Source: Bacillota bacterium (GTDB lineage: Bacteria; Bacillota; DSM-12270; Thermacetogeniales; Thermacetogeniaceae). Taken from it: DNA of 64,000 nt. The notes below the pieces were generated by a model that was not told the origin of the DNA, did not search any database, and was given only the letters and a program-made list of their open reading frames with translations. Below are positions 925-4,951 of this stretch, piece after piece (positions within the stretch are counted from its first letter, which is position 1; the number at the start of each line of letters is the position of its first letter). The DNA lies in the NCBI GenBank assembly GCA_029907475.1, contig JARYLU010000014.1:1-64000 (forward strand), read 5' to 3'. The position numbers and the translations under genes are program-made.

Positions 925-953
925 TTGACACCAGAGGGTGGCTGTGGTAAAGT
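925..953 (+). promoter_or_regulatory. Sigma-A type promoter of the pab operon
   Basis: TTGACA at 925-930 is a perfect -35 box. After exactly 17 bases comes TAAAGT at 948-953, a 4/6 match to the -10 consensus. Transcription would begin near 960 and make a leader of about 220 bases before pabA, which contains the GAG-repeat and terminator described next. Confidence 0.65.
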
Positions 954-992: not shown

Positions 993-1046
993 AAGACCAG
1001 TTGAGACGAGATGAGCCGAGGGAAGCCGAGATGAGACGACGCGGAG
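993..1046 (+). promoter_or_regulatory. TRAP (MtrB) RNA-binding site overlapping an antiterminator
   Basis: GAG triplets occur with strict 5-base periodicity at 1003, 1008, 1013, 1018, 1028 and 1033. Degenerate members AAG at 1023 and GAC at 1038 hold the register, and a further GAG sits at 1044. Repeated GAG/UAG triplets with 2-3 base spacers are the known target of tryptophan-activated TRAP in Bacillus. Bases 993-1001 (AAGACCAGT) can pair with 1075-1083 (ACTGGTTTT), competing with the terminator at 1061-1080. TRAP binding next to this arm would favour termination when tryptophan is high. B. subtilis TRAP also regulates the pabA/trpG gene of the folate operon, which fits the gene downstream. 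Whether mtrB is encoded in this genome is not visible here. Confidence 0.75.
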
Positions 1047-1060
1047 CGTGTGGGATGCGG

Positions 1061-1088
1061 ACCAGTACTTCGGTACTGGTTTTCTTGT
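1061..1088 (+). terminator. Intrinsic attenuator terminator in the pabA leader
   Basis: ACCAGTAC (1061-1068), a UUCG-type tetraloop, and GTACTGGT (1073-1080) form a perfect 8-bp stem followed by a T-rich run. It sits between the GAG-repeat region and pabA. Its 3' arm is shared with the antiterminator pairing, so it is an attenuator rather than an end-of-operon terminator. Confidence 0.75.
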
Positions 1089-1179: not shown

Positions 1180-1791
1180 TTGCTTTTAATGATCGACAAC
1201 TACGATTCCTTTACTTTTAACCTGGTTCAGTATCTAGGGGAAATGGGTCAGAAGATCAAGGTCTACCGGAACGATGCCATTACACTGGCAGAAATTGAGG
1301 CGCTGGCTCCGACGGCAATTCTTCTTTCGCCGGGCCCCTGCACTCCCAACGAGGCGGGGATCTGCCTTGATTTGATTATCCGTTTTGCGGGAAAGGTCCC
1401 TATTTTGGGTGTTTGTTTGGGTCACCAGGCTATCGGTCAGGCCTTCGGCGGGGAAGTTGTCCGGGCACCCCGTTTGATGCACGGCAAAACCTCGCTCATC
1501 TCTCACGACGGGCGCACGATTTATACCGGTTTAAAGAATCCTTTTGAGGCGACGCGCTACCATTCCCTGATCGTGCGGCGGGAAACCCTGCCCGCCTGTC
1601 TTGAGATAACTGCCGAAACCGACCGGGGGGAAATTATGGGGATCCGGCACAAAGAGTTTTTTGTGGAGGGGGTTCAGTTTCACCCGGAGTCAATCTTAAC
1701 CGAAGAGGGGAAACCACTTTTGCGCAACTTCCTGGAGCAGGCGCAAACTTTTGGCAGGGATTTTGCCCGGGCGGGCAGAACTGAGCTGTAA
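1180..1791 (+). CDS. pabA: Aminodeoxychorismate/anthranilate synthase glutamine amidotransferase
   Basis: A 203-residue class I glutamine amidotransferase that supplies ammonia to PabB for 4-amino-4-deoxychorismate synthesis, and probably to TrpE as well, as amphibolic TrpG/PabA proteins do. Visible marks are the N-terminal NYDSFTFN, the LSPGPCTP loop, the nucleophile Cys in GVCLGHQ, and the catalytic His and Glu in QFHPES. I chose the TTG at 1180 because AGGGAGGGG lies five bases upstream; an ATG at 1189 is possible. It is the first gene of a tight operon and the target of the TRAP attenuator, which would couple it to tryptophan level. Confidence 0.93.
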
Positions 1792-1816: not shown

Positions 1817-2692
1817 ATGGAGGGTAATTTTCAGTCCCGTGAGCCCAAAAAGACGGTCGCAGTTGGGGAGGTTATTTTCGGGAGCCCCGAGGTCGTTCTG
1901 ATGGCGGGGCCCTGTGCCGTTGAAGAAAGGGAGTCTTTTCTGGCCTGCGCCCGGGCTTTGCGCCAGGTTGGGGTGCGGGTGCTCCGGGGAGGTGCTTTCA
2001 AGCCCCGGACCAGTCCTTACAGTTTTGCAGGCCTCGGCCAGGCGGGTCTCGAGATTCTCGCGGAGGCCAGGGAGTTTACGGGAATGGCTGTCGTCACCGA
2101 GGTTCTGGACCCGCGCGATGTGGAGCTGGTGGCGGCTTACGCGGATATTCTCCAGATCGGAAGCCGTAACATGCAGAACTTCGCTCTGCTCCGGGAGGCC
2201 GGAAGGAGCGGCCTGCCTGTTCTGTTGAAGCGGGGAATGGCCGCAACCTGCGAGGAGTGGCTGCTGGCGGCGGAGCACCTCCGGGTTGCGGGAAACGAAC
2301 AGATTATTTTGTGCGAAAGAGGGATTCGCACCTTTGAGACCCAGACCAGGAACACCCTGGACCTGAGCGCGGTACCGGTGCTCAAGGAACTGGGTCCTTA
2401 CCCGGTGGTGGTGGACCCGAGTCATGCTGCGGGGAAGCGGGAGCTGGTGGGAGCGCTGGCGCGCGCCGCGGTTGCCGCCGGCGCCGACGGTCTCCTCATC
2501 GAAGTCCATCCCAACCCGGCAGCGGCCCTCTGTGATGGCCGGCAGTCCCTGGAATTAAAGGACTTTTTCCAGTTAGTGCAGGATCTGCGAAAGGTGGCGC
2601 GGGCCGTCGGGCGCTTGGTCAGGGATGAAGAGCGGGTTTACCGCACCGAGAGATTGAAAATCAGCCAGGGGGTAGCCAATGATGATTATTAA
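1817..2692 (+). CDS. aroF: 3-deoxy-7-phosphoheptulonate synthase (DAHP synthase, type I beta)
   Basis: A 291-residue enzyme that condenses phosphoenolpyruvate and erythrose 4-phosphate, the first step of the shikimate pathway. The sequence has MAGPCAVE near the N-terminus, KPRTSPYSF, the metal-site segment VVVDPSHAAGKR and EVHPNP, all typical of the AroF/KDO8P-synthase-like fold. I see no regulatory ACT or chorismate-mutase domain. The start is the ATG at 1817, preceded by GAGGGGGGTCAA. Its last 14 bases overlap pabB. Its place between pabA and pabB ties chorismate supply to PABA synthesis. Confidence 0.9.
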   Translation: MEGNFQSREPKKTVAVGEVIFGSPEVVLMAGPCAVEERESFLACARALRQVGVRVLRGGAFKPRTSPYSFAGLGQAGLEILAEAREFTGMAVVTEVLDPRDVELVAAYADILQIGSRNMQNFALLREAGRSGLPVLLKRGMAATCEEWLLAAEHLRVAGNEQIILCERGIRTFETQTRNTLDLSAVPVLKELGPYPVVVDPSHAAGKRELVGALARAAVAAGADGLLIEVHPNPAAALCDGRQSLELKDFFQLVQDLRKVARAVGRLVRDEERVYRTERLKISQGVANDDY

Positions 2693-4112
2693 AGAGATCG
2701 CCACTTTAGATCCGGTCCGGGTTTTTGAATCCTTAAAAGAGCGCCCTTTTTCCTTCTTCCTGGACAGCGGGATGAATCCCGCCCGCTTGGGGCGCTTCTC
2801 TTTTTTGGGAAGCGACCCCTTTCTCGTTTTTCGGTCGAAAGGTGACCGGGTTGGGATCTGGCGCAACGGGGCCTGGCAGGAAAAAAGGGGCAGCCCCTTC
2901 CTTATTTTAAAAGAATTGGTACACCAGTACCGGATTCCTTCCTCCCCTCCGGTACCGGTGACTGCGGGCGCCTTCGGGTATTTTGCCTACGATTTGGGCT
3001 GGCAGTTGGAAAAACTCCCTGATTGGGCGGAGGATGACCTTGGTCTTCCCGATTGCTATTTGGGATTTTACGACCGGCTGGTGGTGGTCGATCACCTGAC
3101 AGGAAAAAACTATCTGACTTCTACCGGTTTACCGGAGTCCGGTGCAGGCGCGCCGGTCCGGGCGCGCCGGAGGCTGGAGGAACTGGAGGCGCTTATTACC
3201 GGTTGTACGCCTCTGCCGGTACGCGAGGAGGAGTCTTTTCCATTCGGGGATGTCACGAAGATCCAGGGGCACTTCACCCGTGAAACCTACCGGAGGGCGG
3301 TTCAGCGGGCCAAGGATTATATCGCGGCAGGGGATATTTTTCAGGTCAACCTTTCCCAGCGCTTCGCCTGCCCGCTTGCAGTCTCCCCCTGGTCCCTCTA
3401 CCGGAGACTGCGCAGGATCAACCCCGCCCCTTTTGCGGCCTACCTCAATTACCCGGAAGCAGCCGTCGCCAGTGCCTCCCCGGAGAGGTTTCTCCAGGTG
3501 AGAAACGGGGTGGTGGAGACGCGCCCCATCAAGGGGACGCGCCGGCGAGGAAAAAACCCCGCCGAGGACCATCACCTTCGAACAGAGCTTTTAAACAGCG
3601 CGAAGGACCGGGCGGAACTGGTGATGATCATCGACCTCGAACGCAACGACCTGGGTCGGGTTTGCAGTTTTGGTAGTGTTCACGTCCCGGAATTGATCTG
3701 TCTTGAGGAGTATGCTACAGTTTTTCACCTGGTATCGACGGTAAAGGGAACCCTTGCCCCGGGTAAGGACCTGGTCGACCTCTTAATGGCCACCTCCCCC
3801 GGCGGCTCCATTACCGGGGCTCCCAAGATCAGGGCAATGGAAATCATTGAGGAGCTGGAGCCTGTTAAAAGGGGAATTTATACCGGCTCCATCGGCTATT
3901 TAGGGTTTGACGGGTCGGCTGATTTGAACATCGTGATCCGTACTTTTGTCATCAAGGACGGGACCGCATATTTTCAGGTAGGAGGCGGGATTGTCGCAGA
4001 TTCAGATCCTGATGCGGAATACTGGGAAACGATTTACAAGGCACGCGCTCTCATCAGGGCGCTGGGATATGAAGAGGAGGACGTTGAGGAGTGCCTGGCT
4101 TTGCGTGGGTAA
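2679..4112 (+). CDS. pabB: Aminodeoxychorismate synthase component I
   Basis: A 477-residue chorismate-binding enzyme that, with the amidotransferase, converts chorismate to 4-amino-4-deoxychorismate in folate synthesis. The motif RPIKGTRRRG has Lys where anthranilate synthase has Ala (PIAGT); this Lys marks PabB rather than TrpE. SPGGSITGAPK and the C-terminal VGGGIVADSDP segment are the usual chorismate-binding signatures. The start overlaps aroF and the end overlaps pabC, which indicates translational coupling through the four-gene operon. Confidence 0.92.
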   Translation: MMIIKEIATLDPVRVFESLKERPFSFFLDSGMNPARLGRFSFLGSDPFLVFRSKGDRVGIWRNGAWQEKRGSPFLILKELVHQYRIPSSPPVPVTAGAFGYFAYDLGWQLEKLPDWAEDDLGLPDCYLGFYDRLVVVDHLTGKNYLTSTGLPESGAGAPVRARRRLEELEALITGCTPLPVREEESFPFGDVTKIQGHFTRETYRRAVQRAKDYIAAGDIFQVNLSQRFACPLAVSPWSLYRRLRRINPAPFAAYLNYPEAAVASASPERFLQVRNGVVETRPIKGTRRRGKNPAEDHHLRTELLNSAKDRAELVMIIDLERNDLGRVCSFGSVHVPELICLEEYATVFHLVSTVKGTLAPGKDLVDLLMATSPGGSITGAPKIRAMEIIEELEPVKRGIYTGSIGYLGFDGSADLNIVIRTFVIKDGTAYFQVGGGIVADSDPDAEYWETIYKARALIRALGYEEEDVEECLALRG

Positions 4113-4951
4113 ACGGTCGCCTGGTCCCTGAGACAGGCCCCTGTTTGGGGATCAAAGAAAGGGGGTTTCTTTACGGAGACGGTTTATTTGAGACAGTTCG
4201 GGTCTACCGGGGAAAACCCTTTGCATGGAGGCGGCACAGGGCGCGGCTGGCTGCGGGATGTGAGGCATTAAAAATACCTGATCCCGGCGAAGAGCTTGAG
4301 GTAGGTATGAGAACGCTCCTGGAGGCCTGGGGGATCACCGGGGGAAGCATTAGGATCACGGTAACCCGCGGGGAGGCGCCCCGGGGACTGCTCGCCCCCC
4401 CTGAAACAGAGCCCACCGTTGTAATTACCGCCCACCCGGGGGAACCCTACCCTGCCGCTGCTTACGCGCGCGGTTTCCGTGCCGTTACAGTCAGTTTTTC
4501 CCGTAACCACCTTTCTCCGCTCGTGAGGTTAAAGTCCCTCAACTATCTGGAAAATATTCTGGGGCGTCAGGAGGCGGCTGCAGCCGGGGCGGATGAGGGG
4601 ATCTTTTTAAACCTGAAGGGGGAAGTGACCGAAGGAACGTTCAGCAACATCTTTCTTGTTTTTGGGCGGGACTCAGTTGTTACACCTCCTCCGGAGAGCG
4701 GGCTTTTACCCGGGATTACCCGGGAAATCATCCTTTTCCTTGCCGGCGAACTTGGATTTTCGGTTGCAGAAAAAACTATCCTGCCTCAAGATTTCGAAAA
4801 AGCCCGCGAGGCCTTCCTTACAAATTCCCTTTTCGAAGTGATGCCTCTGATTGCGCTGGACGGAGCACCCATCGGTGCGGGAAGGCCGGGACCGGTTGCC
4901 GGGAGCTTGCGCGGGGCTTACCGGAACTATGTGGAGCAAAATCTTTTTTAA
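4091..4951 (+). CDS. pabC: 4-amino-4-deoxychorismate lyase (fold-type IV PLP enzyme)
   Basis: A 286-residue PLP enzyme that releases pyruvate from aminodeoxychorismate to give p-aminobenzoate. Features are the ERGFLYGDGLFETVRVY segment near residue 25, the Lys-containing LKSLNYLENILG (Schiff-base Lys expected here) and EGTFSNIFLV, followed by PPPESGLLPGITR. The GTG start overlaps pabB by 22 bases. A D-amino-acid or branched-chain aminotransferase is possible by sequence alone, but position directly after pabA-pabB settles the role. It ends the operon. Confidence 0.88.
   Translation: MPGFAWVNGRLVPETGPCLGIKERGFLYGDGLFETVRVYRGKPFAWRRHRARLAAGCEALKIPDPGEELEVGMRTLLEAWGITGGSIRITVTRGEAPRGLLAPPETEPTVVITAHPGEPYPAAAYARGFRAVTVSFSRNHLSPLVRLKSLNYLENILGRQEAAAAGADEGIFLNLKGEVTEGTFSNIFLVFGRDSVVTPPPESGLLPGITREIILFLAGELGFSVAEKTILPQDFEKAREAFLTNSLFEVMPLIALDGAPIGAGRPGPVAGSLRGAYRNYVEQNLF

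Follow-up and report, generated by a model that had tools for sequence, protein, structure and literature searches.

The leader described here is most closely related in kind to two TRAP targets of B. subtilis. The leader of trpEDCFBA carries 11 NAG units and an intrinsic terminator, together with a mutually exclusive structure that overlaps both the end of the array and the 5′ strand of the terminator. The trpG (pabA) gene of the folate operon, whose product is the amidotransferase common to anthranilate and PABA synthesis, is likewise under TRAP, which there blocks the ribosome-binding region and thereby acts on translation initiation (PMC11255114).

In the window analysed here, a stretch of 64,000 nucleotides from a draft Bacillota genome of 3.0 Mb (99.65% complete), the same gene lies behind a leader with the general architecture of the trpEDCFBA leader. 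Unlike in that leader, the target is a pab operon, the last units of the array sit within a conserved core, and the proposed antiterminator is a short two-helix pseudoknot conserved across genera rather than a long nested hairpin. Unlike in B. subtilis trpG, the array lies approximately 135 nt upstream of the start codon, ahead of a terminator that precedes the first gene. Leader RNAs also control folate-related genes in the THF and ZTP (pfl) riboswitches, but no Rfam match to either was obtained here at gathering or relaxed thresholds. The preQ1-I riboswitch is an H-type pseudoknot of about 35 nt that directly precedes an overlapping terminator. The resemblance to it is one of layout only, as no sequence similarity was recognised and no Rfam match was found; furthermore, the core described here would be ON when folded. 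The features of the locus are as follows, with S1 and S2 denoting the two helices of the core.

925..953, + strand: sigma-70 type promoter, TTGACA-17-TAAAGT, with an extended -10 (0.3 expected in shuffles)
993..1046, + strand: TRAP array of 11 units, AAG CAG GAG GAG GAG GAG AAG GAG GAG GAC (3-nt spacer) GAG
1038..1039, + strand: invariant GA before S1 (59/59 distinct sequences)
1040..1043, + strand: S1 helix, 5′ strand CGCG, within TRAP units 10-11; pair 8-27 covaries
1048..1053, + strand: S2 helix, 5′ strand GUGUGG; UGG pairs with CCA, and GUG with UAC, G1065 being bulged
1056..1059, + strand: S1 helix, 3′ strand UGCG
1059..1088, + strand: intrinsic terminator, stem 1059-1068 with 1073-1082, UUCG loop, U-rich tail; conserved in relatives
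1062..1068, + strand: S2 helix, 3′ strand CCAGUAC, common to the terminator 5′ strand
1180..1791, + strand: trpG/pabA, glutamine amidotransferase, TTG start; sole family member above cut-off in the genome
1817..2692, + strand: aroF, DAHP synthase of the AroG/KdsA type (TIGR01361 368 bits, cut-off 267.75)
2679..4112, + strand: pabB, aminodeoxychorismate synthase component I; above the pabB TIGR00553 cut-off, below the trpE cut-off
4091..4951, + strand: pabC-like gene of the aminodeoxychorismate lyase family; no model over its cut-off

Taken as a whole, the leader is probably a tryptophan-responsive transcription attenuator of the trpG/pabA-aroF-pabB-pabC operon, a reading drawn from comparative sequence data. 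Transcription is expected to start near position 960. Upstream of the leader, at 550-867, lies a small open reading frame of 105 amino acids with no Pfam match.

The units of the array begin at 993 (AAG), 998 (CAG), 1003, 1008, 1013 and 1018 (GAG), 1023 (AAG), 1028 and 1033 (GAG), 1038 (GAC) and 1044 (GAG), so that the leader holds, at 993-1046, the approximately 11 NAG units with spacers of 2-3 nt that characterise a TRAP attenuator. A sequence-only reading of this DNA had described GAG triplets at a strict five-base step. The array is indeed present, but its last step is of 6 bases, and only seven of its 11 units are GAG, the others being two AAG, one CAG and one GAC. TRAP prefers GAG and UAG, and the AAG, CAG and GAC units should therefore bind weakly. 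The best chain through the array scores 15.0, while everything else in the 64 kb, on both strands, scores below 10.5, and the score exceeds those of all 200 dinucleotide shuffles of the same leader (p = 0.005). A seven-unit pattern allowing up to three mismatches matched the 3.0-Mb genome at this array alone, in a scan limited to patterns: the irregular array of the trp operon escaped it and was found by scoring its region.

The presence of mtrB in the genome was one of two points on which that earlier reading had staked its TRAP assignment. The search for it returned a gene at G000:C21:17381 (L001 1486-1710) matching PF02081 over cut-off with an E-value of 1.8e-38. Its product scores 99 bits against the solved B. 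stearothermophilus TRAP chain 1c9s, and aligns with solved TRAP chains without gaps, the blocks TRG, HHTEK, DKGE and AQFTEHTSAIKIRG being retained. The sequence evidence thus supports the leader as a TRAP target. Between the array and the first gene lies the intrinsic terminator of a TRAP attenuator, ACCAGUAC-UUCG-GUACUGGU followed by the U-rich tail, exactly the UUCG-looped element that had been called, and it is kept in relatives. Between the end of the array and the start codon, at 1180, there are 134 nt, so the array does not overlap the ribosome-binding site as in B. subtilis trpG; with a terminator in place, attenuation rather than ribosome-site blocking, as originally suggested, is the mode of control that the sequence supports. 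The inclusion of a DAHP synthase among PABA genes was also borne out, as aroF stands beside trpG/pabA, pabB and the pabC-like gene.

The gene content of the genome alters what such control would mean. The trp operon of the window genome (L029:2002-7367) contains trpE (over its cut-off), trpD, trpC, trpB, trpA, aroF and tyrA-like and aroA-like genes, and neither trpG nor trpF was found in it. The genome has no TrpG/PabA family member above cut-off other than that at 1180-1791, which therefore most likely works with both TrpE and PabB; tryptophan control at this locus would then bear, in part at least, on a subunit that anthranilate synthase also uses. The trp operon has a TRAP array of its own (L029 1955-2011) and a terminator, and folding of a transcript that stops short of the 3′ half of the terminator predicts a nested antiterminator, GGCG-UA-UUGG/CCAG-CGCC (z -2.3). 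Because this array overlaps the first in-frame ATG of trpE, the true trpE start likely lies further downstream. In Moorella, by contrast, trpG belongs to the trp operon, and what follows the array is pabB-pabC without trpG, which makes a direct link between tryptophan and PABA possible. Control through a shared TrpG accounts for the operon in the window and not for that in Moorella, where TRAP would bring PabB into line with TrpG. The proposal that tryptophan level is linked to folate precursor supply is therefore modified by the shared TrpG as far as the window is concerned, while the Moorella array leaves room for a direct link. Among the relatives, four genomes of the Syntrophaceticus genus (G015-G018) gave no TrpG/PabA amidotransferase at E 1e-30, although all of them have IGPS and two, G016 and G018, showed pabB; these ammonia-tolerant bacteria may possess ammonia-dependent synthases. 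G005-G008 have no IGPS match and keep mtrB, the trp pathway being apparently lost, or missed in incomplete drafts.

Comparison with relatives reveals a conserved core of about 30 nt, GACGCG..UGGGAUGCG.ACCAG, that overlaps the terminator. Fourteen pab leaders of the family share the arrangement GACGCG..UGGGAUGCG.ACCAGUAC-loop-GUACUGGU-U-run, and 59 distinct cores were aligned. S1 is formed by columns 7-10 with 25-28, and its pair 8-27 is UA in 30 sequences and GC in 29, with none mispaired; the neighbours of this pair are invariant or keep G-U. The PabB tree requires at least three changes of the pair class and at least four of the presence of the array, in either direction. The independent events behind the covariation of S1 are few. 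S2 is formed by columns 18-22 with 31-35. Its outer pairs vary (A-U 12, G-C 11, G-U 6; U-G 34, C-G 18), and the outermost is missing in 29 sequences, mainly those that bear an array. Of the cells, 90% are paired, as against 29-39% when the partner strand is slid. All five S2 pairs form in 20 of 20 distinct array-less leaders, whereas the array leaders average 4.2 pairs in the G-C class and 3.5 in the U-A class. The window copy itself has only three contiguous S2 pairs, or six with the bulge. Outside the helices G5, A6 and G23 are invariant, and the GA at 1038-1039 could form tandem sheared G.A pairs with the GA at 1060-1061. The 59 sequences thus describe a conserved structured leader RNA, S1 and S2, with an overlapping terminator as expression platform, as in a riboswitch.

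Since S1 and S2 cross, they make a pseudoknot if both form together, and this pseudoknot would act as the antiterminator. It would overlap both array and terminator, through the covarying S1 and through S2, which has its 3′ strand in common with the terminator and is weak in the window copy. Nearest-neighbour energies are approximately -12 kcal/mol for the terminator, -3 for S2 and -1 for S1. The terminator is therefore favoured energetically, and the core must either win kinetically, by forming first, or be stabilised. Pseudoknot-free folding of the leader was no better than that of shuffles (z -1.0 at full length, -0.5 truncated), and in the truncated leader a competing local hairpin, CGCGgagCGUG, is predicted.

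At low tryptophan, TRAP would remain unbound and the nascent leader would fold the S1/S2 core, in which S2 would occupy CCAGUAC, hold off the terminator and allow the operon to be read. At high tryptophan, the 11-subunit TRAP ring would wrap the whole array. Its last two units, 10 (GAC) and 11 (GAG), contain or flank the 5′ strand of S1, and TRAP binding would consequently destroy S1/S2; the terminator would then form, and transcription would end some 90 nt short of the first start codon. The scheme builds on the sequence elements, their conservation, the covariation of S1, the intact MtrB gene, the single trpG and the second TRAP array at the trp operon, from which it is predicted that TRAP binds, that it does so in dependence on tryptophan, that the pseudoknot forms and antiterminates, and that transcription terminates.

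The TRAP array precedes the core in 10 of the 14 family leaders (G000, G001, G003, G004, G009-G014) and is lacking in G002, G005, G007 and G019, the last a single-contig genome of 2,939,057 bp. A covariance model of the core matched 57 of 399 genomes of the phylum at E ≤0.01, of which about 36 were full-length and credible on inspection; these E-values are rough, and many of the genomes are drafts. Weak matches spanning only positions 27-57, and those in G068 and G324, were set aside as terminator-like chance, and in G127 the TRAP array goes with a different antiterminator. When 84,980 species genomes were scanned with a pattern, 65 matches were obtained, about 50 of them before pabA or pabB and three cut by the end of the locus; the remaining 12 or so (Streptomyces, Amycolatopsis and others) had no pab gene and look like chance. 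In every confident match with a readable downstream gene, that gene is pabA or pabB. Carriers include Moorella, Desulfotomaculum copahuensis, Desulfofundulus, Desulfotruncus, Desulfoscipio, Desulfovirgula, Syntrophaceticus schinkii, Thermacetogenium, Thermosyntropha lipolytica, Syntrophomonas palmitatica and many uncultured Bacillota.

The 68 core-bearing leaders divide sharply into 46 with an array and 22 without: NAG chains anchored on the invariant GAC score at least 7 in the former and at most 1 in the latter, with none between. Exactly nine units precede the GAC in 32 of the 46, and together with the GAC and the next NAG these give 11, matching the TRAP 11-mer. Unit 10 is GAC rather than GAG in all of them because S1 requires a C at that place. 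MtrB was found in every array-bearing genome searched except G004 (76% complete), and in 200 of the 399 phylum genomes. Conversely, G317, whose genome is complete and consists of a single contig, carries a core without an array ahead of pabA-pabB and gave no match to MtrB, so the core is not merely a TRAP-tied remnant. A rule by which the array is kept only where the operon holds the sole trpG was considered. Within the family it finds support in G019, with two trpG, and in genus g4, with no IGPS, neither of which has an array. Counterexamples are G002 (a single trpG and no array), G021, G264, G287 and G351 (two trpG, with an array) and Moorella, on account of the gene placement noted above.

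These data bear on several other explanations of the leader. Slippage can generate purine-rich repeats, and the array might be a chance or low-complexity GAG stretch in front of an ordinary terminator free of TRAP control; yet many genera carry arrays in this position, with spacers that have diverged, all of these arrays end GAC.NAG and most have 11 units, the genome encodes MtrB, and the array of the window is unique in the 64 kb and, by pattern, in the genome, which leaves chance hardly credible. The 9-bp antiterminator of the sequence-only reading is scarcely better placed and is rejected as very unlikely. The letters do pair, AAGACCAGU at 993-1001 with ACUGGUUUU at 1075-1083 and one G-U, but they do so only through the CAG of unit 2, which takes the place of a GAG; the leader of G003, in the same genus, reads AAGATGAGT at that place, and the pairing is lost in all other relatives as well. 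A TRAP attenuator in which the core has no antiterminator role, either because TRAP bound upstream promotes termination or because another local pairing antiterminates, is rather improbable. In its favour, TRAP is reported to induce termination in B. subtilis without need of the attenuator structure (PMC3913778), S2 is weak in the window copy, and the hairpin predicted in the truncated leader could compete. Against this, the S1 pair covaries without exception and the core persists in the 22 array-less leaders, which argues that the core is under selection independent of TRAP.

That persistence, which includes the MtrB-less G317, raises the possibility that the core works as an aptamer, in the manner of a small riboswitch of the pseudoknot type that binds a folate, PABA, chorismate or a related signal and drives antitermination, with TRAP added as a second input in many lineages. 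Some array-less leaders have only about 10 nt before the core, their S2 is perfect, G5, A6 and G23 are invariant outside the helices, and aptamers of about 35 nt and like layout, such as preQ1-I, are known. Furthermore, the terminator is intrinsically stronger than the core, so that a stabiliser would help, and in array-less leaders this could be a ligand. The core is nonetheless small and partly constrained by the overlapping terminator, it matches no Rfam family, and protein binding or a passive kinetic antiterminator could also explain it; the aptamer is thus a candidate that deserves consideration without being the likelier outcome. Rfam 15 gave no match to any known riboswitch or T-box class in the window at gathering threshold, and at relaxed E-values eight related loci gave no relevant match, the lncRNA and snoRNA names returned being chance. 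A literature search, confined for the most part to papers outside subscription, found no description of this leader or of a pab riboswitch. It is proposed, still more tentatively, that the core represents a new class of very small ligand-binding RNA, a pseudoknot riboswitch of about 30-35 nt that is specific to pab operons and turns PABA synthesis on, and that repeated gain or loss of the TRAP array has produced a switch with two inputs.

Further TRAP-like arrays were noted among the loci examined. Those at L046:1482-1640 and, on the minus strand, in L056 and L066 have near-identical terminators, AACCAGGCUUUGCA(A)GGCCUGGUUUUAUUU, and are followed by iorA (indolepyruvate ferredoxin oxidoreductase alpha, TIGR03336 640 bits) in G001 and by PaaK-like ligases in G015 and G018; judged from these arrays, TRAP may also control aromatic amino acid catabolism. 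In G013 (L073, minus strand, near 1500) an array extends into the beginning of a gene for TrpB2 (TrpB-like), in a manner like translational control. L211 and L055 each carry two TRAP attenuators, before DAHP synthase and before trpE, and L054 has two arrays with terminators in one locus. The leaders of L047 and L054 have in common a UUUUGGGAUGUGAACCGGCGC stretch resembling the pab core.

If the preferred reading of the leader as a TRAP-controlled attenuator is true, attenuation of PABA genes by TRAP in acetogens, sulfate reducers and syntrophs extends the TRAP regulon past the Bacillus paradigm, and ties tryptophan to folate supply in organisms that need folate for the Wood-Ljungdahl pathway. 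The occurrence of the same core with and without an array offers a natural comparison for the interconversion of protein-controlled attenuators and riboswitches, and the array-less core, which may be an orphan riboswitch-like element, is a concrete candidate for a new small RNA switch.
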